From Marilutibacter aestuarii (GTDB taxonomy: Bacteria > Pseudomonadota > Gammaproteobacteria > Xanthomonadales > Xanthomonadaceae): 62,261 bases of DNA. The position numbers and the translations under genes are program-made. Below, one piece after another: positions 19,426 to 35,834 of the stretch. The notes under the pieces were generated by a model, which did not search any database, was not told the origin of the DNA, and saw only the letters and a list, made by a program, of their open reading frames with translations. The stretch covers positions 1-62,261 of the forward strand of contig NZ_VICE01000023.1 of the NCBI RefSeq assembly GCF_006546775.1, written 5' to 3'. Every line of letters begins with the position of its first letter. Position 1 is the stretch's first letter.

Positions 19426-19535
19426 TGCTCGATCCGACGGACCGCGGGCGGCGACATGCATCATCATCCGCTCCTGACCGAGGTCCGCATCGGTCGGCCG
19501 CTGCGCGGCACCGTCATGGTCGCAGAAGGGAACGC

Positions 19536-20600
19536 GTGTTGAACAAGCCGAAGAAATCGATCCGCCGGAAGAGCAGTGGCGTGACGATCGACGAAGTGGC
19601 CGCGCTGGCCGGCGTGTCGCCGATGACCGTATCGCGGGTCATCAACAACCAGGGCAAGGTCCGCGACGCCACCCGCGAGCGCGTCATGCACGCGGTGCGG
19701 GAGCTCGACTACACGCCCAACCTGGCCGCGAGCTCGCTCGCGGCCGCGCAGCACACGCGCATCGCGCTCATCTACACCAACCCCAGTGGCGCCTACCTCC
19801 GCGAACTCCTGCTGGGCGTGCTGCGCGCCGCCTCGCGCACGGCGGTGCAACTGGTCGTCGATTACTGGGACGAGCTCGATGCCGACGCCGAGCGCAAGGC
19901 CGCCCGCGGACTGTGCAAGCGGGTCGACGGCGTGATCCTGCCGCCGCCGCTGTGCGAGTCGCGCGCGGCGGTGACCGAGTTCGTCAAGGGCGGCGTGCCG
20001 GTCGTCGCGATCGCGTCCGGCCGGCTCAGCGACGAGATCTCCTGCGTCCGCATCGACGATTTCCGGGCGGGCAAGGAGCTGGCCGAGCACCTGATCCAGC
20101 GGGGCCACACCCGCATCGGCTTCATCCGCGGCCGCACCGACCTGAACGCAAGTGCGCGCCGTTATGACGGCTTCCTTGCCGCCCTGCACGAGGCGGGCCT
20201 CGAGGTCGCCGACGATCTCGTCCAGCACGGGGACTACACGTACCGCTCCGGCCTCGCCGCCGCCGAGAAGCTGCTCGAGCACGCGGACCCGCCCACCGCC
20301 ATCTTCGCGAGCAACGACGACATGGCGGCGGCGGCCATCTCGGTCGCGCATCGCCGCGGCCTCGACGTGCCGCGCGACCTGTCGGTGGTGGGCTTCGACG
20401 ACACCTCGGCGGCGACCACGGTATGGCCCGAGCTCACCACCATCCACCAGCCCATCGCCTCGATGGCCGACACGGCGATCGACATCCTGTTGCGCAGCAT
20501 CAAGCGCAAGAACGACAGCACGCGCGTGTTGATGGACCATGTCGTGCCTCACGGCCTGGTCACCCGCGATTCGGTGGCGGCGCCGCTCAAGCGCAGGTAG
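19536..20600 (+). CDS. xylR: LacI-family transcriptional regulator, probable xylan/xylose repressor
   Basis: A 354-aa LacI/GalR regulator. The N-terminal helix-turn-helix is TIDEVAALAGVSPMTVSRVI with hinge helix NLAASSLAA; the periplasmic-binding-protein-like effector domain follows (about 75-345), with ASNDDMAAAAI and VVGFDDTS. The start is the GTG at 19536 (AAGGG 5 nt upstream), preceding a basic KPKKSIRRK tail; the longer frame crosses the aguA promoter. It is divergent from aguA with 110 bp between. Context and the shared palindrome at 19411, 27570 and 35354 suggest it represses the xylan regulon and is relieved by xylose or a xylo-oligosaccharide. The role is inferred, the family is certain. 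Confidence 0.88.
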   Translation: MLNKPKKSIRRKSSGVTIDEVAALAGVSPMTVSRVINNQGKVRDATRERVMHAVRELDYTPNLAASSLAAAQHTRIALIYTNPSGAYLRELLLGVLRAASRTAVQLVVDYWDELDADAERKAARGLCKRVDGVILPPPLCESRAAVTEFVKGGVPVVAIASGRLSDEISCVRIDDFRAGKELAEHLIQRGHTRIGFIRGRTDLNASARRYDGFLAALHEAGLEVADDLVQHGDYTYRSGLAAAEKLLEHADPPTAIFASNDDMAAAAISVAHRRGLDVPRDLSVVGFDDTSAATTVWPELTTIHQPIASMADTAIDILLRSIKRKNDSTRVLMDHVVPHGLVTRDSVAAPLKRR

Positions 20601-20658: not shown

Positions 20659-23223
20659 TCATGCGTCGGGGCACGCCACGCTCGCCTGGGCTTCATTGAG
20701 CGCCCCCAGCGCCACGCGCGACACCGACAGGGTCATGGCCGCGGCGGTGCCGATGGACCACGGCCTGTCCAGCTTGCCCACGTCCGCACCCGCCTTGGCC
20801 AGGCACTTGAGCGGCACGCCGACACGCGTCCATTCGCCGACGGGCAGCTTCGCCAGGGTCGGCCCCAGTGCCACGCGACCCGCGCATCCCGGGCCGCAGC
20901 CCACCGACAGCCATGCCTCGCCACGCGGCGGCGCGTCCACGCGCAGCGTGGTCAACACCATCACGTCGCCGTTGCTTTCGCGCTGCACGTCGAGGGACAC
21001 ATGCGACTGCAGGGCCACGACGGCCTCGCCCGCACCCGACCAGGCCAGCCGGCGTGCATCTTCCTGCGCCAGATGGTCCACGCCGGTGACGCGCACGAGG
21101 TCGCCCTCGAGTGCCTCCGGCACCTTGGTGACGGTGACGCTCTGGCCGCCCGCGCCCTCGATGCGAAGCGCCATGCCGGATGCCGCTTCGCCGCGCGCGA
21201 AGTAGACGCCCCTCGCGCCGGCGTCGCCGACCGGTCCGGGGTCCTCCGGCAACGGGGCCAGCTCGCCGTCGTCGGCGTAGGCCAGGCCGAAACCGAAGGC
21301 GAAGAGCGGGTCATAACCCTCTTGCCCCGCGTTGTTGGCGTACTGCGTCGCGGTGCGCGGCCAGCTGAAGGAAAGCGTGCCGCTGAAGTCGTGCTGCACG
21401 CTGCCATCGGCCTTGCGCAGCAACACGTCCGCGATGCCCTCGCCTTCCGAGCCCGGCAGCCAGGCCGCGACGAACGCGTCGGCCGCATTGATCTCGCGGT
21501 TCACCCACAGGGGCCGGCCACTGAGGAACACCGCCACCACCGGGATCCCCTCGCCCTTCAGGCGCTTGATCAGCGCGAGGTCGGTGTCGTCGCCCGGCTT
21601 GTACAGCAGGGTCTGGAGGTCGCCCTGGAACTCCGCGTACGGGTCCTCTCCGAACACCACCACCGCGACGTCGGGCGTGTCGGCATACGTCCCGTCCTCG
21701 GACAGGACCGCTTCGCCGCCGGCGGCGCTCGCCTGCCGCGCGATCCCTTCGTAGATCGAGTCGGCGTTGGGGAAGTCCTTGCGCAGGGTACCGGTGCCCT
21801 GCCAGTTGAGCGTCCAGCCGCCGGCCTGCTTGCCGACGTCGTGGGCGCCGTCGCCGGCAACGAGGATGCGCTGGCCCGGTGCGAGGGGCAGCACGCCGCC
21901 GGCGTTCTTCAACAGCACCAGCGACTCGCGCACCGCCTGGCGTGCGACGGCCCGGTGCTCGGGCGAGCCGAGCAGGGCGAAGTCGCCGCCGATCTCGCGC
22001 GAGGACGGCTTGCCCGCCTCGAACAGGCCCAGCCGGAACTTCACCCGCAGGATCCGTCGCACCGCGTCGTCCAGGCGTTCCTGGCTGATCACGCCCGACT
22101 TCGCCGCCGCCAGCGCGGTTTCGTAGAAGCCCTTCCAGCTGTCGGACGCCATGGCCATGTCCAGGCCGGCGGTGATCGTCGCCGGGCAGTCGCTGTTCGT
22201 GCAGCCCTTCACCTGGCCGTGGCCGTTCCAGTCGCCGACCACGAAGCCGCCGAAGCGCATGCGGTCCTTCAGCACATCGGTCAGGTACGGCGCGTTGCCG
22301 TGCATCTTCTCGCCGTTGACACTGTTGAACGAGGCCATCACCGTCTGCGCGCCCGCGGCGATCGCCGGCGGATAGCCGGCGCCGTGGATGCGCGCCAGGT
22401 CGGACTCGCTGATGCGGGTGTCGCCCTGGTCCTTTCCGTCCACGGTGCCGCCGTCGCCGACGAAATGCTTCACCGAGGCGATCACGTGGCGTCCGTCGAG
22501 GAATGCCGGCGTGCCTGCCTTGCCCTGCAGCCCCTCGACCATGGCGCTGGCATAGCGGGCGACGATCTCCGGCGACTCGGAGTAGCCCTCGTAGGTGCGG
22601 CCCCAGCGGTCGTCCTGCGGCACCGCCACGGTCGGCGCGAAGGCCCACTCCATGCCGGTGGCGCGCGTCTCGAGCGCGGTGATCTCGCCGATCCGGCGGA
22701 CCAGTTCAGGGTTGCGCGCGGCGCCCAGGCCGATGTTGTGCGGGAACAGCGTGGCTCCGACAATGTTGCTCTGGCCGTGCACCGCGTCGATGCCGAAGAC
22801 CACCGGGATCGCCTTGCCACCCTGCGAGGTGTCCATCGACGCCTCGTAGAAGGCGTCGGCCAGCGCCAGCCACTCCGCGGGCGATGCGTCGTAGCGGCCG
22901 CCGGGATCGGAGTTGCCGCCCGCCAGGATCGATCCCAGGCGGTACTTGCGCACGTCCTCCGGCGTGAGGCTGGCGATGTCGCCCTGGACCAGCTGGCCGA
23001 CCTTCTCTTCCACGGTCATCGTGGCCATCAGCTCGCTGATGCGCTGTTCGAGCGCGGGGTCCTCGGCGAGTGGCCAGTCGACGCGCGGCCATGGGTTGGC
23101 ATCGGTCGCGACGGGCGCCACCGCCGGTTCCTCGCCCTTGCAGGCGCCCAGGGCCAGCACGACGGCAGCCACCAGCACGGCCGTCGGCCGACGCATCGCA
23201 TCGCGGTTCCTCATCCTGCTCAT
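20659..23223 (-). CDS. GH3 exo-1,4-beta-glucosidase/xylosidase-type lipoprotein (ExoP-like)
   Basis: An 854-aa GH3 enzyme with a lipoprotein signal (lipobox LGAC, Cys28). Catalytic domain: KHFVGDGGT (252-260), nucleophile Asp331 in FVVGDWNGH. The (alpha/beta)6 domain follows, with VVVFGEDPYAEFQGDLQTL; the C-terminal third carries a CBM-like beta-sandwich typical of ExoP/Cel3-type enzymes. It probably cleaves beta-linked gluco- or xylo-oligosaccharides in the periplasm. The ATG at 23223 overlaps the transporter stop (ATGA); Met4 or Met10 are possible alternatives. It is the last gene of the xylB operon, convergent with the regulator. Confidence 0.92.
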   Translation of the reverse strand: MSRMRNRDAMRRPTAVLVAAVVLALGACKGEEPAVAPVATDANPWPRVDWPLAEDPALEQRISELMATMTVEEKVGQLVQGDIASLTPEDVRKYRLGSILAGGNSDPGGRYDASPAEWLALADAFYEASMDTSQGGKAIPVVFGIDAVHGQSNIVGATLFPHNIGLGAARNPELVRRIGEITALETRATGMEWAFAPTVAVPQDDRWGRTYEGYSESPEIVARYASAMVEGLQGKAGTPAFLDGRHVIASVKHFVGDGGTVDGKDQGDTRISESDLARIHGAGYPPAIAAGAQTVMASFNSVNGEKMHGNAPYLTDVLKDRMRFGGFVVGDWNGHGQVKGCTNSDCPATITAGLDMAMASDSWKGFYETALAAAKSGVISQERLDDAVRRILRVKFRLGLFEAGKPSSREIGGDFALLGSPEHRAVARQAVRESLVLLKNAGGVLPLAPGQRILVAGDGAHDVGKQAGGWTLNWQGTGTLRKDFPNADSIYEGIARQASAAGGEAVLSEDGTYADTPDVAVVVFGEDPYAEFQGDLQTLLYKPGDDTDLALIKRLKGEGIPVVAVFLSGRPLWVNREINAADAFVAAWLPGSEGEGIADVLLRKADGSVQHDFSGTLSFSWPRTATQYANNAGQEGYDPLFAFGFGLAYADDGELAPLPEDPGPVGDAGARGVYFARGEAASGMALRIEGAGGQSVTVTKVPEALEGDLVRVTGVDHLAQEDARRLAWSGAGEAVVALQSHVSLDVQRESNGDVMVLTTLRVDAPPRGEAWLSVGCGPGCAGRVALGPTLAKLPVGEWTRVGVPLKCLAKAGADVGKLDRPWSIGTAAAMTLSVSRVALGALNEAQASVACPDA

Positions 23224-24635
23224 CCCTCCATCTCCTCGAGCTCCTTGCCGCGGGTCTCGTGCACGTACCTGAGCACGAAGACCACCGACAGCGCCGCGGC
23301 GACCGTGTAGATGCCGTACGCGCCCGCCAGTCCGATGCCGGCCAGCAACATCGGGAAGGTCCAGGTGACCAGGAAGTTGGCCGACCATTGCGCCAGTCCG
23401 GCAATGGCCAGGCCCGAACCGCGGATCTGGTTCGGGAACATCTCGCCCAGCATGATCCACATCACCGGCCCCCACGACATGTTGAAGAACACCACGTAGA
23501 GATTGGCGGCCACCAGGGCGAGCACGCCCATGCCGTCCGACAACTGCAGCGTGCCGGCGCCGTCCAGTTCGCCGCTCGCGAACGCGACGGCGACCAGTCC
23601 CAGGGTCACGGCCATGCCCGCCGAACCCGTCCACAGCAGCGGCTTCCGCCCCACCTTGTCCACCAGGAACATCGACACGATGCATGCGCCGATGCTGAGC
23701 GCGCCGGAGATCACGTTGATGAGCAGCGCGTCGCTCTCGGAAAATCCCACCGCCTGCCACAGCACCGCGCCGTAGTAGAAGACGACGTTGATGCCGACCA
23801 GCTGCTGGAACGTGGCCAGGCCGATGCCCACCCAGACGATGGGGCGGAGCCTGCCGGTGGTCCTGCTGACGACGTCCGACAGGCGCGGCACGTGGTGGTC
23901 GGAGGCGAGCGAGGCGTCGATCTCGGCCTGCTTGCGGCTGCCGCCCGCCGCGCCGTAGAGCCGTTGCAACACGGCCGTCGCCTGCGCCTTCCGGCCCCGG
24001 GCCACCAGGTAGCGCGGGCTCTCGGGGATGAACAGCAGGGCGAGCAGGAACAGGCCGGCCGGCAACATCTCCACCCAGAACATCCAGCGCCATGCCTCGT
24101 GTCCGCCCCACAGCGGCGTCACCGAACCGCCGGCCATGCGGGCCAGCAGGTAGTTGCTGAGGAAGGCCGCGAACAGGCCACCGATGATCGCGATCTGCTG
24201 CACCGTCGCCAGCCGGCCGCGGTACTGCGCCGCAGAGACCTCGCTGATGTAGGCGGGCGACATCACGCTGGCCGCGCCCACCGCAAGACCGCCCAGCACG
24301 CGGTACAGCACGAATTCCAGCGAGCCGCTGGCGATGCCCGAGCCCCATGCCGAGACCAGGAAGAACACCGCCGCCACGATCAGCACGTTGCGTCGGCCGT
24401 AGTGGTCGGCCAGCCAGCCGGCGAAGAACGCGCCCACCGCGCAGCCCAGCAGCATCGAGGCGACGTTGAACCCGGTGCCTACAGAGTCCGAATCAAAGGC
24501 CTGTTGCAGGCCGTCGACCGTGCCGTTGATGACTCCGCTGTCGAATCCGAACAGGAATCCGCCGATCGTCGCCACCACGCTGATCAGGATGATCAACCGC
24601 GTGTTCTCGCCCCCCGTCGCCGCCTGGTTGCTCAT
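23220..24635 (-). CDS. MFS sugar porter (SP family), xylose transporter-like
   Basis: A 471-aa, 12-helix sugar porter. The SP-family signatures are present: GFLFGFDSGVINGT, GWLADHYGRRNVL, PESPRYLVARGR, QQLVGINVVFYYG, VDKVGRKPLLW and, at the end, ETRGKELEEMEG. It probably brings xylose (or glucose) across the inner membrane by proton symport, feeding XylA. The start at 24635 has a G-rich SD only 3 nt away; ATG 24644 is a less likely alternative. It lies 40 bp after xylA, and its stop overlaps the GH3 start. Confidence 0.92.
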   Translation of the reverse strand: MSNQAATGGENTRLIILISVVATIGGFLFGFDSGVINGTVDGLQQAFDSDSVGTGFNVASMLLGCAVGAFFAGWLADHYGRRNVLIVAAVFFLVSAWGSGIASGSLEFVLYRVLGGLAVGAASVMSPAYISEVSAAQYRGRLATVQQIAIIGGLFAAFLSNYLLARMAGGSVTPLWGGHEAWRWMFWVEMLPAGLFLLALLFIPESPRYLVARGRKAQATAVLQRLYGAAGGSRKQAEIDASLASDHHVPRLSDVVSRTTGRLRPIVWVGIGLATFQQLVGINVVFYYGAVLWQAVGFSESDALLINVISGALSIGACIVSMFLVDKVGRKPLLWTGSAGMAVTLGLVAVAFASGELDGAGTLQLSDGMGVLALVAANLYVVFFNMSWGPVMWIMLGEMFPNQIRGSGLAIAGLAQWSANFLVTWTFPMLLAGIGLAGAYGIYTVAAALSVVFVLRYVHETRGKELEEMEG

Positions 24636-24675
24636 CGTCCCCATCCTCGATCGTCGTGTCGTTGGCCCGTGCCGC

Positions 24676-26010
24676 TCAACGCAGCAGGTACTGGTTGAGC
24701 AGGTTCTCGTACCGTTCCTGCTTGCCGCTGGCCTGGGTCGGCTCGCCCTGGCCGACGGCCAGTGCCGCCAGGCCGGCGAGGTCCAGCGCGCCGTCCTCGA
24801 ACGCCTTGCCCGGGCCCGCGTCGAAACTGGCGTAGCGATCGCGGCGCCACTGTTCCCACGGCGAATCGTTCAGCAGCGCATGCGCGACCTCCAGGCCACG
24901 CGCGAATGCATCCATGCCACCGATGTGGCCGATGAACAGGTCTTCCATGTCGGTCGACTCGCGGCGCGCCTTGGCGTCGAAGTTCAGGCCGCCCTCCAGT
25001 CCGCCCTGCCGCAGCACCACCAGCATCGCCCCGACGGTGTCGTACAGGTCGGTGGGGAACTGGTCGGTGTCCCAACCGTTCTGCGCGTTGCCGCGGTTGG
25101 CGTCGATGCTGCCGAGCAGCCCGTGGTCGGCGGCGACCTGCAGGTCGTGTTCGAAGGTGTGGCCGGACAAGGTGGCGTGGTTGGCTTCGATGTTGAGCTT
25201 GAAGTCCTTCTCCAGCCCATGCGCCTGCAGGAAGCCGGCCACGGTGGCGCTGTCGAAGTCGTACTGGTGCTTCATCGGCTCCATCGGCTTGGGCTCGATC
25301 AGGAAGTTGCCCTTCAGGCCGATGCTTCGGCCGTAGTCGCGCGCCATGGTCAGGAAGCGGGCGAAATGCGCGAGCTCGCGCTTCATGTCGGTGTTGACCA
25401 GCGAGGCGTAGCCCTCGCGGCCGCCCCAGAACACGTAGTGCTCGCCGCCCAGTTCGACGGTCGCCTCCAGCGCCGCCTTCACCTGCACCGCGGCGCGGGC
25501 GACGACGGCGAAGTCGGGATTGGTCGCCGCGCCGTTCATGTAGCGCGGATGCGAGAACAGGTTGGCCGTGCCCCACAGCAGTTTCATGCCGGTGGCGTCC
25601 TGGCGTGCCTTGGCCAGCCCGACCATGTGCCTGAGGTTCTTCTCGTACTCGCCGATGTCGTCGGCATCGGGCGCAAGGTCGACGTCGTGGAAGCACCAGT
25701 ACGGCACGCCGAGCTTGGTGAAGAATTCGAATGCGGCGTCGACCTTGGCTTCGGCCGTGGCCATCGGCGCGCCGGCGTCCCACGGGAAGTGGCGGGGCCC
25801 CGGGCCGAACGGATCGTGGCCGGCGTTGCCGAAGGTGTGCCAGTAGCAGACCGCGAAGCGCAGGTGCTCCTGCATGGTCTTGCCGCCGATCTTCTTGCCG
25901 GCGTCGTAGACCTTGAACGCCAGCGGGTTGTCCGAACCGCGGCCCTCGAACGGGATGCGGCCAATGCCGGGAAAGTACTCCTTGGCGCCGATGAAGGGCT
26001 GGGTGCTCAT
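24676..26010 (-). CDS. xylA: Xylose isomerase
   Basis: Converts D-xylose to D-xylulose. The 444-aa cytoplasmic enzyme has the class II length and all family landmarks: [12 protein letters not shown] with the catalytic His/Asp pair, [24 protein letters not shown] (metal and Lys ligands), [18 protein letters not shown], and GSIDANRG. An AGGA stands upstream of the ATG. It is the second gene after xylB (42 bp gap) in the operon controlled from 27570. Confidence 0.97.
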
Positions 26011-26052: not shown

Positions 26053-27546
26053 TCAGCCGCGCTGGAGCGGCGTGACCGCGTCGAGGTACTGGAGGAACCG
26101 GCGGTACGCCGCCGCATAGGCGGCCGAGCGGGACGCGTCCGGCGTGGCGGAAAGGGCGGGGTCGACCGCAACATGCGCGCGCGCGATCCCGGCGATGGAC
26201 GTGTCGTCGCCGCGCGCGCGGCCCCATGCCCACAGCGCCTGGAGTGCGGCGCCGAACGCCGCGCCCTCGGACTGCGCGGGCACGTCGACCGGCAGGCCGA
26301 AGACGTCCGCGACCAGCTGCCGCCATGCCGCGCTGTTGCTGCCGCCGCCGGTCAGCACGATGCGCTCGAAGCGCATGCCCGCGCGAACGAACGCATCGTA
26401 GCCGTACTTCAGGCTGTAGGTCGCGCCTTCCATCGCCGCGCGGAAGACGTGCGCCGGCGACAGGTTGGTCGTGTCCAGTCCGGCCAGCACGCCCTTGCCC
26501 AGCGGCAGGTCGGGGGTGCGCTCGCCGTTGAGGAAGGGCAGCATCACCAGTCCATCCGCGCCGGGCGGCGTGGCTTGCAGGTGGGCATCGGCATCGCGCA
26601 CGCCCAGGCCGAACGCCTTGGCCACCTGCTCGGTGGCCAGGGTGCAGTTCATCGTGCACACCAGCGGCAGCCAGCCGCCGGTCGAGGAGCAGAAGGCCGC
26701 CCATGCACCGGTCGGATCGACCACGGGCGTGTCCGAATAGGCGAACAGCGTGCCCGACGTGCCCAGGCTCATTGCCAGGCGACCTTCTTCCACGCAGCCG
26801 GTACCGATCGCCGCCATCATGTTGTCGCCACCGCCGACGGCGACTTGCACCGTCGCTGGCAGGCCAAGCCGGGCGGCGGCGGCCGGGTCGATGTCGAACA
26901 GCGCATCCGGGGCGGCGATCGGAGGGAGGCAGGTGCCGAGGTCACGCTCCGGGTCCGTCGCTTCCAGCAGCTCGGCCGACCAGGTCCGGGTGCGGACATC
27001 CAGCCAGCCCGTGCCCGAAGCATCGCCATGTTCGCAGAAGCGCTGGCCGGTCAGCACGAAGTTGAGGTAGTCGTGCGGCAGCAGGATGCTGGCCAGGCGC
27101 GCGTAGGCGTCCGGGCGATGGGTCTTGGTCCACGGCAGTTTCGAGGCGGTGTAGCCGGTGAGGATGGGATTGCCGGCGAGGGCGATGGTGGACGCCACGC
27201 CGCCCACGGCGTCCATGATCCGGCTGCACTCGGCCGACGTACTGGTATCGCACCAGAGTTTGGCCGGTGCCAGCACCTCGCCCGCGGCATCCAGCGGCAC
27301 GAAGCCATGCTGCTGGCCGGACACCGCCAGCGTCGCGATGCGCGCACGCACTGCCGGGTCGATGCGGTCGAAGCAGGCGTGCATCGCCGCGACCCAGTCG
27401 GCGGGCTGCTGTTCGCGGCTGCCGTCCTCGCCACTGGCAAGGTCCAGCGGTTCGCTCGCCGTCGCCACGAGGGCACGGGCGGCGGGGTCGTAGACCACCA
27501 CCTTCAGGCTCTGCGTGCCCGCATCGATCCCCGCGGCAAAAGCCAT
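26053..27546 (-). CDS. xylB: Xylulokinase
   Basis: Phosphorylates D-xylulose to xylulose 5-phosphate for the pentose phosphate pathway. The 497-aa FGGY-family kinase shows GIDAGTQSLKVVV (phosphate 1 loop), SGQQHGFVPLD, LWCDTST, HDYLNFVLTG, MSLGTSGTLFAY and VLTGGGSNSAAWRQL. The ATG at 27546 has GGAGG 8 nt upstream; an in-frame GTG three codons earlier lies inside that SD spacing. It is first in the xylB-xylA-transporter-GH3 operon. Confidence 0.96.
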   Translation of the reverse strand: MAFAAGIDAGTQSLKVVVYDPAARALVATASEPLDLASGEDGSREQQPADWVAAMHACFDRIDPAVRARIATLAVSGQQHGFVPLDAAGEVLAPAKLWCDTSTSAECSRIMDAVGGVASTIALAGNPILTGYTASKLPWTKTHRPDAYARLASILLPHDYLNFVLTGQRFCEHGDASGTGWLDVRTRTWSAELLEATDPERDLGTCLPPIAAPDALFDIDPAAAARLGLPATVQVAVGGGDNMMAAIGTGCVEEGRLAMSLGTSGTLFAYSDTPVVDPTGAWAAFCSSTGGWLPLVCTMNCTLATEQVAKAFGLGVRDADAHLQATPPGADGLVMLPFLNGERTPDLPLGKGVLAGLDTTNLSPAHVFRAAMEGATYSLKYGYDAFVRAGMRFERIVLTGGGSNSAAWRQLVADVFGLPVDVPAQSEGAAFGAALQALWAWGRARGDDTSIAGIARAHVAVDPALSATPDASRSAAYAAAYRRFLQYLDAVTPLQRG

Positions 27547-27569
27547 CCAACCCACCTCCGAAGCAAAAA

Positions 27570-27583
27570 AGTTAGCGCTACCA
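27570..27583. promoter_or_regulatory. LacI-family operator upstream of xylB
   Basis: AGTTAGCGCTACCA matches 12 of 14 positions of the perfect palindrome at 35354 and keeps the TAGCGCTA core. It is 24 bp before the xylB start codon, where a bound repressor would block initiation. Confidence 0.8.
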
Positions 27584-27767: not shown

Positions 27768-28466
27768 TCAAGCCGCCACATCGATGAAGCTGTTGATCGA
27801 CAGGCGGCCGGTGGCGGGATCGGACGGCAGCAGGCGATCGTTGCCGATCCGGCCCGAGTGCAACGAGTTCCGCCGGTACACGATGAGCCGGTTGAAAACA
27901 CCTTCCACGCCCTCGATCCGCTCGAACAACGGGGTGTCCCCGTCGATGTAGCCCTGGACCCGCCCTGCGTCGCGGCGGCGCTCCTCCTCCGTGCACGCGA
28001 AGTAGGCCGCATGGCGCCCCTCGTCGACATACTCGAACCCCGTGGCCCGGTGCCGGTAGAAGTCCGTGCCGCCCCAATCCCCTCGAAACAGGTAGTGGAC
28101 GGTGGCCAGGCCGTTCCGGTGCACGGAGTCGATGTGCGGGATGCGCTGCAGGTAGTGCAGGCTCGACGGAGGCTGCGTGACCAGCGAGAAGTGGCACATC
28201 GGGAAGACGAACCGCCCCGGCGCCAGGTCGAAGCAATCACGCAACAGGGGATTGAGGATGGACTCCAGGAACTGGCCGTAGGACGGCGGCGCGGGGGCGC
28301 GGAGACCCGGGAACATCGAGGCCATCTTCGTGTACTGGCGGGTGCAGGCCTTGCCCACCATGCGCTCGGGGTCGGCGAGCAGCTGGTCGATGACCAGCAG
28401 CGGCGCCCGCTCGCGACCGATCAGCCTGCGACTGGCGCGTAACCCGGGATGCGTGTCCAGCAGCAT
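27768..28466 (-). CDS. DUF6445-like protein with a 2OG-Fe(II)-oxygenase-like motif set
   Basis: A 232-aa cytoplasmic protein resembling DUF6445 proteins that accompany TonB receptors and tryptophan-halogenase-like genes. Its biochemical role is not established. By eye it carries HID (His111-x-Asp113), a distal His203 in NSLHSGR and Arg221 in GRLSINSF. This spacing resembles the HxD...H...R set of prolyl-4-hydroxylase-type iron/2-oxoglutarate oxygenases; that is my inference. It follows the halogenase-like gene by 24 bp and is the last gene before the terminator at 27596. Confidence 0.75.
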   Translation of the reverse strand: MLLDTHPGLRASRRLIGRERAPLLVIDQLLADPERMVGKACTRQYTKMASMFPGLRAPAPPSYGQFLESILNPLLRDCFDLAPGRFVFPMCHFSLVTQPPSSLHYLQRIPHIDSVHRNGLATVHYLFRGDWGGTDFYRHRATGFEYVDEGRHAAYFACTEEERRRDAGRVQGYIDGDTPLFERIEGVEGVFNRLIVYRRNSLHSGRIGNDRLLPSDPATGRLSINSFIDVAA

Positions 28467-28490
28467 CGACCCGCCTCCTTCCCGGACGCG

Positions 28491-30020
28491 TCAGCCGGGC
28501 ACGGGCCGAGCGCCCCAGACTTCCGCGCTCGCCCTGCAGTAGCCATCGATGAACGCCTGCTGCGACGGCATCGTCGCCACGGCCTGGTCGATGGGCCGGC
28601 GGATCGAGGCCAGCAGCGACCGCAGACCGTCGTCCCCCAGCGCCCGCGCCAGGGGATGGGCCGGGCCGGGCTGGACCCCCTGCCCCAGCAGCACATGGGT
28701 CCAGGAGTCGACCCGGAAAAGCTCGTCGGGATCCTGCCAGGCATGGGCGCGCTCGCGCCAGGCGCGCAAACGGATCTCCAGCGAATCGGGAAGCGCCATC
28801 TCGCGGCAGGCCTTCCACATCGGTTCCTCGCGCTGCGTGGCGTGGTAATGGAGGATGATGAAATCGCGCACGTGCTCCATCTCCGCGCGACTGACGTCGT
28901 TGTACAGGTCCACCAGGGACGAGGCCATGCCATCGAACGGGAACAACTGGACCAGGCGCACCACCGCGCTGATGGCCAGGTGGATGCTGGTCGACTCCAG
29001 CGGTTCGATGAAGCCACTCGCCAGTCCCAGCGCCACCACGTTCCTGTTCCAGGCCTTCAGCCGCCGGCCGGTACGGAACGGCACCAGCCAGGGCTCCCGG
29101 ATGGCCGGCGCACCGACGTCGCGCAGCAGCTTGGCGCGGGCCTCGTCGTCGGACATGTGGCGGCTGGAGAACACCAGCCCGCATCCCACGCGATGCTGGA
29201 GCGGGATATGCCAGCGCCACCCGGCCTCGTGCGCGATCGCACGGGTGTAGGGAACCGGCGGCCCGACGGACTCGGTCTGTACCGCCACGGCGCGGTCGCT
29301 GGGCAGCCATTCGTTCCAGTCCTCGTAGCCGGTCTCCAGCGTCTGCTCGATCAGCAGGCCGCGAAAGCCGGTGCAGTCGATGAACAGGTCGCCTTCCAGC
29401 ACCGTGCCGTCCTCGAGCACCAGCGCGCTGACCGAACCGTCGTGGGCATGTTGCCTGACCTCGCGGATCTTGCCTTCAAGACGACGCAACCCGTGGCGCT
29501 CGGCAATGCGGCGAAGGAACTTCGCGTACAGGCTTGCATCGAAATGGTAGGCGTAATTGACCTGGGGCTTCGTCTGCAGCGAGAAGCGGTCGCCGCGCGA
29601 GGCGACCGTCTCCAGGCAGAAGTCGCCGAGCTCCGACGGCATGCCACGGCGGATGCTGTCCAGCCAGAAATGGTGGAACGCCGTCGCCCAGGTGCCCTGC
29701 CCGGTGATGCCGAACGGGTGTATGTAGCGCTCGCCCGGGCGGCGCCAGTTCTCGAACGAGATCGACAGCTTGAACGTGCCGGCTACCGCGCGCAGGAACT
29801 CCTGTTCGTCGATCTGCAGGAAACGGTGGAAGGTGCGGATGGGAGGCACGGTGGATTCACCCACGCCCACCGTTCCGATCTGTTCGGACTCCACGAGGGT
29901 GATCTCGAGCCGCTCGCGGAACTGGTGCGACAGCGCGCAGGCGGCCAACCAGCCCGCGGTACCGCCGCCGGCGATCACCACCTTGCGGACCGGGCCTTTC
30001 GGGGTGTCTGTGGCGTCCAA
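28491..30020 (-). CDS. Tryptophan-halogenase-family flavoprotein
   Basis: A 509-aa FAD-dependent protein of the tryptophan 7-halogenase family (PF04820). The dinucleotide motif is VVIAGGGTAGWLAA (14-27), then VGVGESTVPPI. Lys84 in GTFKLSISFENW aligns with the catalytic lysine of known halogenases, the halogenase signature WRWHIP is present (268-273), and the FIEPLESTSIHL stretch (338-348) carries the conserved Glu. The start is a TTG at 30020 with GGAG 8 nt upstream, 17 bp after the cupin gene. The key residues suggest an active oxidant-forming enzyme, but homologues in TonB-receptor loci have no proven halogenation substrate. Confidence 0.88.
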   Translation of the reverse strand: MDATDTPKGPVRKVVIAGGGTAGWLAACALSHQFRERLEITLVESEQIGTVGVGESTVPPIRTFHRFLQIDEQEFLRAVAGTFKLSISFENWRRPGERYIHPFGITGQGTWATAFHHFWLDSIRRGMPSELGDFCLETVASRGDRFSLQTKPQVNYAYHFDASLYAKFLRRIAERHGLRRLEGKIREVRQHAHDGSVSALVLEDGTVLEGDLFIDCTGFRGLLIEQTLETGYEDWNEWLPSDRAVAVQTESVGPPVPYTRAIAHEAGWRWHIPLQHRVGCGLVFSSRHMSDDEARAKLLRDVGAPAIREPWLVPFRTGRRLKAWNRNVVALGLASGFIEPLESTSIHLAISAVVRLVQLFPFDGMASSLVDLYNDVSRAEMEHVRDFIILHYHATQREEPMWKACREMALPDSLEIRLRAWRERAHAWQDPDELFRVDSWTHVLLGQGVQPGPAHPLARALGDDGLRSLLASIRRPIDQAVATMPSQQAFIDGYCRASAEVWGARPVPG

Positions 30021-30037
30021 GTCGATGGCTCCGTGCG

Positions 30038-31054
30038 TCAGCGGTTGAGGCGATTCAAGAGCATGGCGCGCATGCGCCGGGCCCGGGTTTCGTCGATGGG
30101 GCCCAGCATGTCGCGGGCCTGCTCGGGCAGATGCGCCCCCGCCCGCCCGGCCGGCCCGAACACGTAGTAGTCGAAGACATGGGCCCAGGCCTGCTTCTCG
30201 CGCTCGGGCAGGTCCCGCATCGTCCACAACGCATGATGGAGCGCCGGCAAGGGCGAGGACAGATAGTCGGGCGAGCGGCGCCACCAGTAGTTGACCAGGA
30301 CATTGAACGGTTCCAGGCTGCGTACGTGATGCCACCACATGCTGGGGATGAAGATCGCGTCGCCCGGTTCCAGCGTCGCGGTCCGCGCATGGGCGAGCGC
30401 ATCACGGAAGCGCGGATGACGCTCGAAGTCCGGCGCATCGAAATCGACCACGCTGACGACCTGCCCGCCCGGCGTCGGCTCGAGTGGCCCCGGATAGAGG
30501 TTCCCGACCTGGTCCGGCGGGAACAGGGTGAACTGGCGGCGCCCCACGGCACAGCAGGCCAGGTTCTCGGGCGCATCGAAATGGCAGGACGCAACGACCC
30601 GGTTCCCGATCCAGATGCTGGCCGGTGCGTCGATCCCATGGGCCTCCAAACCGAGTCCGTTGGCTTGCGAGAAACCGGGCAACGCGCGGTCGACCAGGAG
30701 CGAGGCCACGTAGTAGGTCGGCGGTCGTGGATCCTCCAGGTGGGCGCTGATCCCGTCGAGCACCTCGCCCAGGTGTCCGCGCCTCACTTCGAAGTTCAAG
30801 CGGGTGAAGTCGTCGTTGTAGAACGGCCGTCCGCCGATATCCGGATCGCCCCGGGAATACTGCACCGGCTGGCCCGCGTCCAGCCCGCGCAGGTAGTCCA
30901 TCGCGTCCCGCGTGGCGCGCAGGCCCGCCTGCACCAGGGGCCAGTCGCGCGCGACGCCCTTCAGGATGGCAGGCTGTCCATCGGCCAGGAGCGCATCGAG
31001 CGGCAGCGCTTCGCCACCGGCAAGGCGCATTGTCCTGATTGCCTCGCCTTCCAT
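30038..31054 (-). CDS. Cupin_8/JmjC-like protein (putative Fe(II)/2-oxoglutarate hydroxylase)
   Basis: A 338-aa protein of the cupin-like (PF13621-type) family related to FIH/JmjC hydroxylases. Metal-site residues are visible: His158-x-Asp160 in ASCHFDAPENLACC and distal His242 in IFIPSMWWHHV. GRRQFTLFPPDQVGNLY is the typical segment after the HxD. Family members hydroxylate proteins or small molecules; the substrate here is unknown. The ATG at 31054 (TGAGG 5 nt upstream) is chosen because the longer frame overlaps the SapC-like gene; Met9 (31030) is an alternative. It is the second gene of the SapC-cupin-halogenase-DUF6445 module. Confidence 0.85.
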   Translation of the reverse strand: MEGEAIRTMRLAGGEALPLDALLADGQPAILKGVARDWPLVQAGLRATRDAMDYLRGLDAGQPVQYSRGDPDIGGRPFYNDDFTRLNFEVRRGHLGEVLDGISAHLEDPRPPTYYVASLLVDRALPGFSQANGLGLEAHGIDAPASIWIGNRVVASCHFDAPENLACCAVGRRQFTLFPPDQVGNLYPGPLEPTPGGQVVSVVDFDAPDFERHPRFRDALAHARTATLEPGDAIFIPSMWWHHVRSLEPFNVLVNYWWRRSPDYLSSPLPALHHALWTMRDLPEREKQAWAHVFDYYVFGPAGRAGAHLPEQARDMLGPIDETRARRMRAMLLNRLNR

Positions 31055-31061
31055 CCGGGCC

Positions 31062-31817
31062 TCAGCTGTCGCCGGCCCGGGCGGTGTCCTGCTCACGCAG
31101 GCGACGCTGCTTCTCCGCCATCAACCGGCGCACGTTGTGCAGCGATGCCAGCATCAGGTAGGCCCCTTCCAGGTAGCCCGCGCGGTTGAGCTCGAGCAGG
31201 GTGGGTCCGTCCAGCGAGGCCAGTCGTTCGCGGGCGATGCCATGCAGGCCTGCGACGGCGACCCGGTGTTGCCCGTCCAGTTGCACGTCCAGGCTGACCG
31301 GCTCGATGAGCCCGGCTGCGTCCAGCGCGGCGAACATGGCCTTGCCGAAGGTACTGCCCTCGTGGATGCCTCGCAGGATGGTCGCCACGTGCTCGAGGTA
31401 CGGCGTATTGCCGCCTTGCGGCAGGAACAGCGGCTCGCCCTCCACCCGGCCCACGCGGGGATGCTCCACGTCCACGTGCACCACCGGCTCCAGGACCGGT
31501 TCGCCGCCGACCTGCTGCTCCTGGAATCCGATGAGGAACGGTCCCTTGGCCGAGGCACCCGGCAGGTAGGACGCATTCCAGCGGCCGTCGCGCAGGAACA
31601 GGTTCTCGCGCTGCTCGAACCCGAGCAACGCCACCGATTGCCACTCGCCGTCACCGGCGGCCTTCTTCAGGAAGATCGGGTACTCGCGCTGCAGCTCCGC
31701 GAACTCGCTGGGGAACGCCGGCACCATGCCCACGTCGTCGCCGAACTGCGGGCCAAACCCGGTGGCGACACGCAGGTCCTTGTGCGTCACGTTGTTGAGT
31801 AGCTCGTAACGGGCCAT
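31062..31817 (-). CDS. SapC-family protein
   Basis: A 251-aa protein of the SapC family (PF07277), named after an S-layer-associated protein but without a defined activity. Family features are the N-terminal YELLNNVTHKDLRV, FPSEFAELQREYPIFLKK, LLGFEQRENLFL, and the C-terminal LMLASLHNVRRLMAEKQRR. There is no signal peptide. The ATG at 31817 has AAGG 6 nt upstream. It follows the TonB receptor after a 145-bp gap that contains a strong terminator, and leads the accessory module. Confidence 0.88.
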   Translation of the reverse strand: MARYELLNNVTHKDLRVATGFGPQFGDDVGMVPAFPSEFAELQREYPIFLKKAAGDGEWQSVALLGFEQRENLFLRDGRWNASYLPGASAKGPFLIGFQEQQVGGEPVLEPVVHVDVEHPRVGRVEGEPLFLPQGGNTPYLEHVATILRGIHEGSTFGKAMFAALDAAGLIEPVSLDVQLDGQHRVAVAGLHGIARERLASLDGPTLLELNRAGYLEGAYLMLASLHNVRRLMAEKQRRLREQDTARAGDS

Positions 31818-31894
31818 CGTCGACCTTGGAGGGAAGCCTTCGGCCAATACTAACGCCGGCGCGTCATGCCGGCGCAGTACCCCGGGGCCCTGTC

Positions 31895-31962: not shown

Positions 31963-34900
31963 TCAGAACTTGTAGCGGACGCCCAGCATGTAGCGTGGAT
32001 CCTGGTCCGCCAGCTTGACGATCATCTCCTCGGTGCGCGCGCGCCAGCGCACGTCCTCGCCCGTCAGGTTGATGGCCTCAAGGCCGAACGACCAGTGATC
32101 GTTGAGCGTGTAGTTCACGCTCAGGTCCCACTGGTCGTACTCCTCCACGTAGTACGGATTGCGGCTGGAGCCCTGGTTGGCGAGGATCAGGTACTCGTCG
32201 CGCCAGTTCCAGGCAAGGCGGACCGACCAGCCGTACTTTTCGTACATGAACATCGCATTGGCCGTGTCGCTAAGGCCGGTGAGCGCGAACTGGTCCAGGC
32301 CGGGGTCGCCCCCGTCGTCGTAACCCACGTCGCCGTCGACGACGGTGTAGTTGGCGAGGATGCCGAAACCGCTGTCGCCGAAGAAGTACTGCCCGCCGAT
32401 CTCCCAGCCATGGAGCTTGGCCTTGTTCTGGTTGATCGGCCGGTTGACGTTGAACAGGTACAGCGGATCGTCCGCCTCTCCGTACAGGTCGTAGGCCGCC
32501 TCGGTGGTCAGCACCTGGGCACCGGTGCCGTCGTAGGCCGCCAGGCCTGCCGGGTCGTTTCGCAGGAGCGCCAGTGCGGTGAACAGCGAGGTGTCGTTGG
32601 CCGAACACGCGGCCGCGTTGGCGGCACCGACCTGTGCAAGGCAGGCCGCGCTCGTCAGGAAGTCGAGCGCCGCCTGCGCGTCGGGACCCGAGGTGGGGTC
32701 GCGCAGGCCGTACAGCGATTCCTGTCCCACCGTATTGCCGATGAAGTTGTCGACGGACTTGTTCCAGTACGTCACCGACACGTAGCTGGAATCGGCGAAG
32801 TACCACTCCAGGGCCAGGTCGAGGTTGTCCGATTCAAGCGGCTCCAGGCTCGGGTTCTGCGCGTTGCCGCTCGCCCGGGTCGAGGGATCTATCAGGACCG
32901 AACCGAACGGCTGCTGCGCACCCGGACCGGCGTACAGGTTGCCGTAGGGGGCCCGGGCGATGCTCTTGCCGAACGAGGCCCTGCCCTTGAGGTCCTCGGT
33001 GAAATCGATGCTGAAGTCGAGGTTGGGCAGGATGTAGCTGTAGCTCGCCCGCTCGCTGAAGGGCTGCTGCTCATCGGACAACACGATCCGGAAGTCGTTG
33101 TTGGCCTGCCATTCGATCGCCTCCGGGATCGCGATCACCGAAGTGGACACCACGTCGGTAGTCTCGTATCGGACGCCCAGGCGGGTATTGGTGCGCATGT
33201 CGCCGAGCGAACCGTCCAGCTCCACCTGGATGTAGGCGGAGTGCGTTTCTTCCTCCACCCGGTTGTCGGCGGCGCGCTGCGGGCTCACGCCCAGCCCGAC
33301 GCCGTACACGTCGGCTGCCCACTGCGCCAGTTCGCCCGCGTCACCGCGCCAGCCCGGCCAGCTGGACACGCTGAAGTCGTTGAACAGGTTGCCGATGTTG
33401 ACGGGGCGGAGCAGGTCCATCAGCCCGGCCGCCGTGTCGGAGTCGACGTTGGCCACGCCCCAGTCGCCCAGCGTCGAGTAGGCTTCCGCGGCCTGGATGC
33501 GATGGGTGCTGGACTCGTTGGTGTCGACGCCGAACTGGAAGCGCCCCTGGTCGAACAGCCACTCGCCGTCGATGCGGGCCTGCTTGATCTCGCTGATCTG
33601 GGTCTGCGCATTGATGCGCAGCACCTGCGAGCCGACCTCGCCTTCCACGAACCCGGGGTTGACCACGCCATTGGTGCCGGCGACGGCATCCGTGGTGGTC
33701 GGATACCAGGTCTGGATCCCGACGGGCAGGCCGTCGTTGAAGATCAGCTCCTGCACCCATGAGCCGCCGCAATGGGGTCCCGTCGTGCAGTTGTTGGTGC
33801 CGGCGATGCTCGAGAAGATCGAGCCACCGCCGGTCAACGGGTCGTTCGGCCGGCTCTCGTTCTTCGAATCGTGTGCGTCGAAGCTGAGGCGGAAATTGTC
33901 GTTGACGAACCATTCGGCATTGAAGCCCAGCGATCCCAGCTTGTACTTCTGCGCGCTGCGCTGCTGCTCCAGGCCGAAGTCCTTGGTGCCCGCGATCTCG
34001 CGGATGTAGATGGGCGTGGCCACGGCACCGCTGGTGTCGAACTCGACGTCGGTGTAATTGCTGTTCTGCAGCCACATCGCCTGCTCGCCGCGGTTCTCGG
34101 TGATCTCGTTGGTCGAGTAGGTGTAGTCCAGGGTGAAGGTCAGCGCGTCGGTCGGAGCGAACTGGACGACCGCCTGGCCATTCACACGCTCGCGTTCGAA
34201 CTCGGAGAAGGCATAGCGCAGGTCGTTGGGACGTGCGTAGAGCTCGCCGATCCCGGGCGCGTTCACCACCGTCGGGTTGCCGGGCATGGTCCCCGTCCAC
34301 GGCTGCACGTTCCAGTAGTTCTCGGTCGCCTGGACGGAGCCGCCCTTGCGCTTCTGCTGGCTCGCGCTCAGGCTCACGCCGAAGGTCTTGTCCGGGTTCG
34401 CGTAGCTGAAGATGCCCGACAGCTCCGGCGTGATGTCGTTGTCGAACGGCTGGCTCTTGTCGGACACCGCCTTGGCGCCTGCGCTCGCCACGATGCCGTC
34501 GTAGTTGAAGGGCTTCGCGGTGAGGATGTTGATGGTCGCGCCGATGCCGCCACTGGGCACCTGGGCCTGGCTGGTCTTGTAGACCTCGATGCCGTTGATC
34601 GCTTCGGCGGCGAGCTGCGCGAAGTTGAACGCACGGGTACCGCCGTCGACGCCGCCGATGGCGACCTGTCCGGATGCACCGAACGCATCGGCGCCCGGCA
34701 TCTGGCGGCCATTGAGCGTCACCATGTTGAACTGCGGGCCGAAGCCGCGGGCCGTCACCTGCGCGCCCTCGCCGTCGCGGCGTTCGATCGAGATGCCGGT
34801 GATGCGCTGCAACGACTCGGCGAGGTTGGTGTCGGGGAACTTGCCGATGTCCTCCGCGCTGATCGCGTCGACGACGCCGGTGGCATCGCGCTTGACGTCC

Positions 34901-35115
34901 ATCGCCTGGCTGAGGCTGTTGCGGATGCCCGTGACCACGACCGCGTCCAGGTCGGTCGCCTGGGCTTGCGCCTGCTCCTGCGCCTGCTCCTGCTCCTGCT
35001 GCGGCGCCGGGGCCTGCGTGGTTGCTTCCTGCCCGAACGCAGGGTTGATGACCAGCACGCCCCCGACAAAGGTGAACATGGCCTTCGATCTGAGTGTCGC
35101 CAACTTACGACTCAT
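31963..35115 (-). CDS. TonB-dependent receptor, predicted xylo-oligosaccharide uptake
   Basis: A 1050-aa outer-membrane receptor. Order: signal peptide (about 1-29), a Gln/Glu/Ala-rich spacer, TonB-box-like DLDAVVVTGIRNSL, plug domain (about 55-190: AEDIGKFPDTNLAESLQRITGIS is characteristic of the Xanthomonas/Caulobacter carbohydrate receptors, then GFGPQFNMVTLNGRQMPG), and a 22-strand barrel ending MLGVRYKF with the terminal Phe needed for assembly. The ATG at 35115 has GAGGG 7 nt upstream. The perfect LacI-type palindrome about 240 bp upstream ties it to the xylan regulon. The substrate is inferred from context. Confidence 0.93.
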   Translation of the reverse strand: MSRKLATLRSKAMFTFVGGVLVINPAFGQEATTQAPAPQQEQEQAQEQAQAQATDLDAVVVTGIRNSLSQAMDVKRDATGVVDAISAEDIGKFPDTNLAESLQRITGISIERRDGEGAQVTARGFGPQFNMVTLNGRQMPGADAFGASGQVAIGGVDGGTRAFNFAQLAAEAINGIEVYKTSQAQVPSGGIGATINILTAKPFNYDGIVASAGAKAVSDKSQPFDNDITPELSGIFSYANPDKTFGVSLSASQQKRKGGSVQATENYWNVQPWTGTMPGNPTVVNAPGIGELYARPNDLRYAFSEFERERVNGQAVVQFAPTDALTFTLDYTYSTNEITENRGEQAMWLQNSNYTDVEFDTSGAVATPIYIREIAGTKDFGLEQQRSAQKYKLGSLGFNAEWFVNDNFRLSFDAHDSKNESRPNDPLTGGGSIFSSIAGTNNCTTGPHCGGSWVQELIFNDGLPVGIQTWYPTTTDAVAGTNGVVNPGFVEGEVGSQVLRINAQTQISEIKQARIDGEWLFDQGRFQFGVDTNESSTHRIQAAEAYSTLGDWGVANVDSDTAAGLMDLLRPVNIGNLFNDFSVSSWPGWRGDAGELAQWAADVYGVGLGVSPQRAADNRVEEETHSAYIQVELDGSLGDMRTNTRLGVRYETTDVVSTSVIAIPEAIEWQANNDFRIVLSDEQQPFSERASYSYILPNLDFSIDFTEDLKGRASFGKSIARAPYGNLYAGPGAQQPFGSVLIDPSTRASGNAQNPSLEPLESDNLDLALEWYFADSSYVSVTYWNKSVDNFIGNTVGQESLYGLRDPTSGPDAQAALDFLTSAACLAQVGAANAAACSANDTSLFTALALLRNDPAGLAAYDGTGAQVLTTEAAYDLYGEADDPLYLFNVNRPINQNKAKLHGWEIGGQYFFGDSGFGILANYTVVDGDVGYDDGGDPGLDQFALTGLSDTANAMFMYEKYGWSVRLAWNWRDEYLILANQGSSRNPYYVEEYDQWDLSVNYTLNDHWSFGLEAINLTGEDVRWRARTEEMIVKLADQDPRYMLGVRYKF

Positions 35116-35834
35116 TGACGTGCCCTCGGGTCTGGAGTTGCACGGAAACTGCACGCGTTCATGGACTTCCCCTTTCGCTGCATCGATGGATGTTTCGCCC
35201 CCCAAGGGGGCACCCGCGGGCTTGGCCCGTCTTCCTGGCCGGGTATGGGTACGGAAACATCCGGCAGGCTTCCGTAGCGCGAGTTCCGGCTTCCAACGTG
35301 ACGAACGACTGCGCGGTGGACGGGCTCCCGCCGGCCCCTCCGGCCGGACATTGTGGTAGCGCTACCATCGCGATGGACGCAGACTAATCACGGGTCTCGG
35401 CACTTGTCACCGTGCAGCGCAACAAAGTGGCGCCGATCACCGAGCCACCCGGGCGGGTTCGCGCTGCCCGCACGGGCGTGGGAGCGACCCCGCAGGACTC
35501 TTCACGGGAGGTGCGCACATGCTCCGGTGACTGCCATCGAGCCGGACAGGCGGGGTCCGCAAAAACCGGCAGATCGCCGCGTGAGTTGAGGCGGCATGCC
35601 CACGCGTCCCGGTGTTGCCATCGCGCCCCTGTCCTGCAGGTCATCGGGCGGGGTGATGCACGCATGACGCTGCTGGCGCCCGGTCCGACATGGCAAGTAC
35701 GAGGCGCCCGCCGCCCGCCCCCGGGGACGTCGATGCCGTCTTAACCCGGGCGGTCGTACCTTCGACGCGTGTTCGGCCCTGATCGAGCGGGTGGGCGCGT
35801 GGCCTGTCCACTCCCTTTCCTACGGAGACACCCC
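35116..35834. other. Long intergenic region carrying the receptor promoter
   Basis: A 719-bp gap between the leftward TonB-receptor gene and the rightward lipoprotein gene. It holds the palindrome at 35354-35367 and must contain both divergent promoters. Short frames inside it have no SD or family features; nothing else was recognised. Confidence 0.6.
35354..35367. promoter_or_regulatory. Perfect LacI-family operator palindrome upstream of TonB receptor
   Basis: TGGTAGCGCTACCA is a perfect 14-bp palindrome, the best copy in the window, and matches the type of box bound by the XylR-like LacI regulator of Xanthomonas xylan genes. It lies 239 bp upstream of the receptor start codon, so a long 5' leader is implied if it acts at the promoter. 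Confidence 0.85.

Follow-up and report, generated by a model that had tools for sequence, protein, structure and literature searches.

What do three putative oxidative enzymes and a SapC family protein do beside a TonB-dependent receptor in a xylan locus? In this study, we analyzed 62,261 nucleotides of DNA from Marilutibacter aestuarii (contig NZ_VICE01000023.1; this whole stretch is hereafter the window), in which the receptor gene is followed by genes for SapC, a Cupin_8 protein, a flavin-dependent halogenase and a DUF6445 protein (hereafter the module). We suggest, with a probability of about 0.4, that these genes form a protein-modification set dedicated to the receptor. In favor of this reading are the recurrence of the set beside receptors for different sugars, the grouping of full-set receptors in one clade, a tryptophan (Trp) at the start of a predicted receptor loop that accompanies the halogenase, the apparent kinship of both predicted oxygenases with protein hydroxylases, the similarity of one module halogenase to an enzyme for which a peptide substrate has been considered, and the large proteins that accompany SapC elsewhere.

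Gene content and recurrence of the module

The features that carry the argument are as follows (E, expectation value).

31963..35115, minus strand: TonB-dependent receptor of the TonB-Xanth-Caul type, 1050 amino acids from the ATG at 35115 (profile match TIGR01782)
34072..34074, minus strand: codon of receptor Trp348, at the start of predicted extracellular loop 3
31062..31817, minus strand: SapC family protein, ATG start, TTG at 31847 possible (PF07277, E 8e-66)
30038..31096, minus strand: Cupin_8/FIH-like oxygenase, GTG start, ATG at 31054 possible; H172, D174, H256 (PF13621, E 1e-72)
28491..30020, minus strand: flavin-dependent halogenase, TTG start; Lys84, WRWHIP from residue 268, Glu342 (PF04820, Trp_halogenase, E 3e-190)
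27768..28466, minus strand: DUF6445, predicted 2-oxoglutarate/Fe(II) oxygenase; H111, D113, H203, R221 (PF20043, E 7e-78)

As the first-pass annotation of the window had claimed, the four genes follow the receptor; all are on the minus strand and have strong profile matches. The receptor scored 765 bits against TIGR01782 (cut-off 310) in a profile scan of the window proteins, and SapC 222 bits against PF07277 (cut-off 28.9). The receptor and SapC genes are 145 bases apart, the SapC and cupin genes overlap or nearly touch, depending on the start, and with the starts chosen the gaps from cupin to halogenase, from halogenase to DUF6445 and from DUF6445 to the following kinase gene are 17, 24 and 212 bases, respectively.

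The scan of named genomes with SapC covered at least 548 relatives, of which the 80 best loci were kept; all are from Lysobacteraceae, and the sample leans to near relatives. Receptor, SapC, cupin_8 and halogenase were on one strand in all 80 loci, and DUF6445 was also present in 24 of them; thus, judging from this best-80 sample, the set is no chance neighbourhood. SapC was present at 50 places in 40 of 274 evenly sampled gammaproteobacterial genomes, and all 50 were read (L037-L084, L085 and the window). A halogenase was present at 10 of the 50, each with a receptor in the cluster; at one of them, L058, the receptor lies on the opposite strand and is joined to the cluster only across contig ends. 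A search of the same genomes with a profile of module receptors (three candidates scored in each genome, E limit 1e-150) gave 11 places, nine of them followed by SapC and halogenase; the other two were a split receptor in G205 and a receptor at a contig edge in G042, a genome without SapC. At the level of the phylum, 138 of 398 genomes had SapC, and among 40 further stretches chosen from them by hand, SapC stood with a strong halogenase in 17, and each of these has a receptor next to it. Other Gammaproteobacteria and Alphaproteobacteria have the set as well.

Such a survey of SapC sets and TonB receptors had been proposed in the first-pass annotation, and wherever SapC was accompanied by a strong halogenase a receptor was near, with L270 as the exception. 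The earlier observation is thus right, and it is more general than could be seen from the window alone. At L270:8775-16012, SapC and a 963-residue frame with a halogenase domain have giant frames nearby and no receptor. Some plasmid loci depart from the downstream placement: SapC lies divergently to the receptor, together with the halogenase (L313, L315) or with the cupin (L312, L314, L317). A search of open-licence PMC papers, by titles and the beginnings of abstracts, yielded no description that we recognised as the module.

Receptor lineage and the tryptophan at a predicted loop

A quick tree of 96 receptors united the 30 that have SapC, cupin and halogenase in one clade (Shimodaira-Hasegawa-like approximate likelihood ratio test, 97); there were also a distant group of five with SapC and halogenase and no cupin, and further groups accompanied by the halogenase alone. 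After 28 plasmid receptors had been added, three halogenase-less Pseudoalteromonas receptors fell inside the module lineage, and three plasmid receptors with divergently placed SapC and cupin fell outside the earlier 30-row clade. One strict receptor clade, which holds for the 96 receptors, was therefore loosened by the plasmid receptors. The stretches of the three Pseudoalteromonas plasmids (L305, L307 and L309) contain no halogenase, SapC or cupin; the receptors of L307 and L309 are next to glycoside hydrolase (GH) 16 genes, and L305 is without annotation.

Trp348 stood out when receptors with and without a neighbouring halogenase were compared. Judging from the pattern of short turns and long loops, this residue would be at the top of an outward strand, and all 34 receptors of the module clade have it. 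Defining the Trp segment as 8-20 residues after the column of residue 337, we found a Trp in 48 of 52 halogenase-adjacent receptors versus 3 of 42 other receptors, which was the largest difference among Trp windows over 634 anchor positions. This rule was fixed before a plasmid set was fetched, and the plasmid receptors replaced a planned set of three receptor families. From 60 listed plasmid records, 27 were taken (H41-H46, H48, H49, H51, H56-H60, H62, H64-H67, H69-H72, H75, H79, H87 and H88), giving 28 receptors, whose loop sequences were not viewed before choosing. Evident near-duplicates (H47, H50, H52, H53 and H55) were skipped and others (H54, H61, H63, H68, H73, H74, H76-H78, H80-H86 and H89-H100) were omitted without a stated rule; among the omitted records, the plasmids of H73, H85 and H92 bear a halogenase by annotation. 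Halogenase-neighbour labels were taken from profiles for all rows, and three plasmid records are annotated with one or two features.

On the plasmid receptors, the fixed rule found the Trp in 13 of 13 halogenase-adjacent receptors versus 4 of 15 others (Fisher p 7e-5, uncorrected for kinship), and the pooled counts were 61 of 65 versus 7 of 57. Five other segment widths gave pooled counts of 52-61 of 65 versus 3-12 of 57. With lineage correction, 200 pairings yielded 7 independent pairs, on average 3.5 concordant, 0 discordant and 3.5 tied, and the corrected association between Trp and halogenase is suggestive but not significant.

The halogenase and its characterized relatives

The Lys, WxWxIP and Glu of PF04820 halogenases have catalytic roles, and the window halogenase carries all of them together with the GxGxxG motif. 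Lys84 and WxWxIP are intact as first described, the numbering of the Lys being right if the TTG at 30020 is the start. Within the fetched loci, the K, W, W and E were retained in 102 of 102 SapC-linked main halogenases, 37 of which have A or S in place of the P of WxWxIP, and in 15 of the 17 lower-scoring copies linked to SapC. Between receptor and SapC, a second, divergent halogenase is present in many modules (for example, L045:10280-11959).

The best PDB matches were Xcc4156 (6y1w, 2e-161), 9luq (3e-149) and BrvH (6frl, 7e-132). Xcc4156 and BrvH have the Lys, WxWxIP and Glu as well. Over the same 101 residues, Xcc4156 is 93% identical to the module halogenase of locus L096 and 60% identical to the window halogenase, whose activity is a prediction. 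The L096 gene (L096:11311-13471, genome G023) is interrupted by an in-frame stop. The native substrates of Xcc4156 and BrvH are not known, and the authors call a peptide conceivable in the available part of their paper, which also names MibH as a peptide halogenase (PMC7336383); both enzymes slowly turn over free indole in vitro. The available passages of the papers on Xcc4156 and BrvH do not place them in a receptor operon and contain 'TonB' 0 times. For a MibH-like halogenase, which acts on a Trp inside a peptide or protein, the correlation with the receptor Trp is what was seen here. To such halogenases, which have solved structures and no known natural substrate, our finding offers a genomic home and one named residue that can be tested.

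Two predicted oxygenases

The cupin matches the Cupin_8 profile and has the HxD...H iron ligands, and DUF6445 has a similar HxD...H, so that profiles, motifs and the DUF6445 fold described below agree with the earlier reading of both proteins and the halogenase as oxidative enzymes. The best PDB match of the cupin was FIH (3e-21), followed by JMJD5, C2orf60 and JMJD7 chains. FIH, JMJD5 and JMJD7 share the Cupin_8 fold family and HxD...H with it; only about 130 residues align with FIH, and Arg187 occupies the column of the 2-oxoglutarate lysine of FIH, which we take to be K214. The H, D and H were retained in at least 105 of 108 cupins of the fetched loci, and the Arg at the residue-187 column in the ten commonest motif patterns listed.

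A PDB sequence search with DUF6445 gave no match up to E 1. Its predicted model (mean predicted local distance difference test score 90.9) has a double-stranded beta-helix fold with HxD...H...R, and its fold matches were 2-oxoglutarate oxygenases, with OGFOD1 first (E 1e-4) and Tpa1 tenth (1.5e-3). The H, D, H and R were retained in 37 of 38 sequences of the fetched loci. OGFOD1 and Tpa1, which have a similar fold and the same motif, are ribosomal-protein prolyl hydroxylases; at about 12% identity and a template modelling score of about 0.5, the match does not imply their substrate class for DUF6445. By sequence for the cupin and by predicted fold for DUF6445, the nearest relatives of both thus appear to be protein hydroxylases.

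SapC and its partners

SapC gave no match up to E 1 in a PDB sequence search, and its predicted model, of middling confidence (82.6), had no fold match with E under 0.001. Its neighbours were more telling. Receptor, cupin and halogenase are all absent from 41 SapC loci; of these, 26 had a frame of at least 1000 amino acids in the stretch, upstream on the same strand in 21 of the 26. A frame of at least 1500 amino acids was present in 20 of the 41, compared with 8 such frames in the 1.58 Mb of the 80 named loci; the giant frames were counted from stop to stop, and some in G+C-rich genomes may be spurious. When parts of 13 giant frames were searched against Pfam, four had a TPS secretion domain, one RTX repeats, one cadherin domains and one DUF5649 with weaker matches, and six had no match. 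The common partner of SapC is thus a large exported or outer-membrane protein, and a role in holding the chain may therefore be given to SapC. These neighbours also suggest one role for SapC, as a partner of large exported surface proteins.

Giant TPS, RTX, cadherin or DUF5649 proteins stand beside SapC, with neither receptor nor halogenase, at L038, L041, L052, L054, L065, L068 and L069, and L041 also has OEP and HlyD secretion genes. In Alphaproteobacteria, SapC adjoins ordinary TonB receptors of about 700 residues (L261:8748-11822 and L279:6595-9603). In the available part of a paper on the S-layer locus sapCDEF of Campylobacter fetus, SapC stands with surface-protein genes (PMC4943207). 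The likeness of that locus to the SapC loci studied here is one of name and neighbours; no S-layer or type I secretion gene adjoins the window module, whose neighbours are the receptor and enzymes.

Proposed mechanism and alternative explanations

Under the reading that the module modifies its receptor, xylose would cause a LacI-type repressor to leave the palindrome in the receptor promoter, and joint production of receptor, SapC, cupin_8, halogenase and DUF6445 would follow. No signal peptide was seen by eye in the four module proteins, which would work on the receptor chain while it is still in the cytoplasm, ahead of export. SapC might recognise or hold the unfolded chain, the halogenase might place Br or Cl on a Trp, with Trp348 as the best candidate, and the FIH-like and OGFOD1-like oxygenases might hydroxylate further residues; across Alpha- and Gammaproteobacteria, the same set would serve receptors for many sugars. 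Gene order and family assignments are solid, whereas co-transcription, cellular location, substrate, the part played by SapC and all reactions are inferred. The scheme as a whole is the likeliest reading, at somewhat less than even odds, and its boldest form, halogenation of Trp348, is less likely still. If receptors were indeed halogenated and hydroxylated before export, outer-membrane proteins would carry chemistry unannotated today, which would matter for glycan uptake, phage adsorption and enzyme engineering.

Several results weigh against this reading. When every amino acid was scanned and each clade given the same weight, eleven windows of other residues (Tyr, Ser, Ile, Phe and Asp) outranked the best Trp window by clade-mean difference, so that the choice of Trp rests on the known chemistry of the enzyme. 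The commonest pairing had 4 concordant, 0 discordant and 3 tied pairs, and the median p of 0.125 was not significant; with fewer than six informative pairs, p 0.05 is out of reach. Four halogenase-adjacent receptors lack the Trp, and the three Pseudoalteromonas receptors of the module lineage keep it with no module genes nearby. Finally, many halogenases of PF04820 have no receptor within about 8 kb, and the receptor link is therefore a property of the sets with SapC and of some pairs of receptor and halogenase, rather than of the enzyme family at large.

In a first alternative, the Trp would simply serve sugar stacking in a single kind of glycan receptor, the enzymes would act on some other protein or on different residues of the receptor, and the correlation would reflect shared lineage. 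Most halogenase-adjacent rows are in one large clade (55 rows), independent pairs are too few and other residues correlate as well. However, outside that clade, counted from the tree, the Trp was present in 14 of 18 halogenase-adjacent receptors versus 3 of 50 others, and several halogenase-less receptors beside sugar-degradation genes are without it. We consider this explanation unlikely, though it deserves serious weight. The view that the enzymes act on a small aromatic or sugar-linked ligand brought in through the receptor, such as ferulate, appears distinctly improbable. It would fit the action of Xcc4156 and BrvH on free indole and the presumed co-regulation of receptor and enzymes, but the closest relatives of both oxygenases act on proteins, Pfam or NCBIfam scans of 29 window proteins, a part of the window genes, showed no feruloyl esterase, and the same enzymes accompany receptors for quite different sugars. 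In the same genome, contig C45 has a second module with GH3, a solute symporter, a LacI regulator and a glucokinase; in G039, one copy is near GH94 and GH130 and another near GH1, a GlgX/alpha-amylase-type protein and glycogen phosphorylase; and plasmid SapC-halogenase sets, some of them without the cupin, are beside GH3, GH16, alpha- and beta-galactosidase, GH95, or GH115 with GH43. Overall, the module neighbours include genes for the use of beta-glucan, mannan, alpha-glucan and galactosides, and a xylan- or ferulate-specific task is therefore unlikely. Thus, among the targets first proposed, the receptor or a surface protein stands as an option, whereas a sugar-linked aromatic such as ferulate is disfavored by contexts so varied.

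Halogenases and 2-oxoglutarate oxygenases are common in pathways for ribosomally synthesized and post-translationally modified peptides, and the set might mature such a peptide from a precursor gene elsewhere, the receptor exporting or sensing it. MibH does provide a precedent for a peptide halogenase, but the short gaps and near-contact between the module genes are too small to fit a separate precursor gene within the unit (no search covered short frames that overlap the genes), and we set this explanation aside as very improbable. Least credible of all is a modification that hides the receptor from phages or bacteriocins instead of tuning sugar uptake: it would account for one set with receptors for many sugars and is at odds with the presumed control by a sugar regulator.

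Receptor modification may also take other forms. On a plasmid of Asticcacaulis sp. DW145 (L320:4384-10458), a TonB receptor is followed by genes for a sulfotransferase, an aspartyl/asparaginyl beta-hydroxylase and a second sulfotransferase, perhaps another receptor-modifying set, and we count this in favor of the reading.

Xylan context and the presumed operator

The remaining features of the locus are as follows.

35354..35367, no strand: perfect palindrome TGGTAGCGCTACCA, presumed operator (XylR-type) for the receptor gene and the module (pattern search)
27570..27583, no strand: weaker copy of the palindrome, reading TGGTAGCGCTAACT on the minus strand, in front of the xylulokinase-like gene (pattern search)
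26053..27555, minus strand: FGGY carbohydrate kinase, presumed xylulokinase (profile match)
24676..26010, minus strand: xylose isomerase-like TIM barrel protein (profile match)
23220..24644, minus strand: sugar transporter, Sugar_tr (profile match)
19425..20600, plus strand: LacI-family regulator, presumed XylR (profile match)

On the minus strand, the order is receptor, SapC, Cupin_8, halogenase, DUF6445, FGGY kinase, xylose isomerase-like protein, sugar transporter and GH3. Because GH67, arabinanase/GH43-like proteins, a GPH symporter, a xylosidase-like GH3 and the LacI regulator are also in the window, the locus is, by its gene content, a glucuronoxylan locus. The palindrome comparison used what we take to be the letters of the Caulobacter and Xanthomonas xylose palindrome. 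A similar palindrome is described for the xylose genes of both in the available part of the paper on CUT (carbohydrate utilization with TonB-dependent receptor) loci, whose main text, as far as available, contains halogenase, SapC and cupin 0 times each (PMC1790865). The xylan CUT system of Xanthomonas resembles the window in combining a TonB receptor, xylan and xylose genes and a xylose-type palindrome.

The first-pass annotation had assigned the locus to a xylan regulon with its best palindrome at the receptor, which agrees with both the neighbouring GH67, GH43-like, GH3, isomerase and kinase genes and the operator search. The module and the xyl genes are likely one transcription unit each, both under one regulator. 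TGGTAGCGCTACCA was contained in 0 of 100 shuffles, and its copy in the receptor promoter is the sole perfect XylR-type palindrome of the genome; the degenerate pattern TGGTAGCGCTAMCW occurs in the whole 3.49 Mb assembly only at 35354-35367 and 27570-27583.

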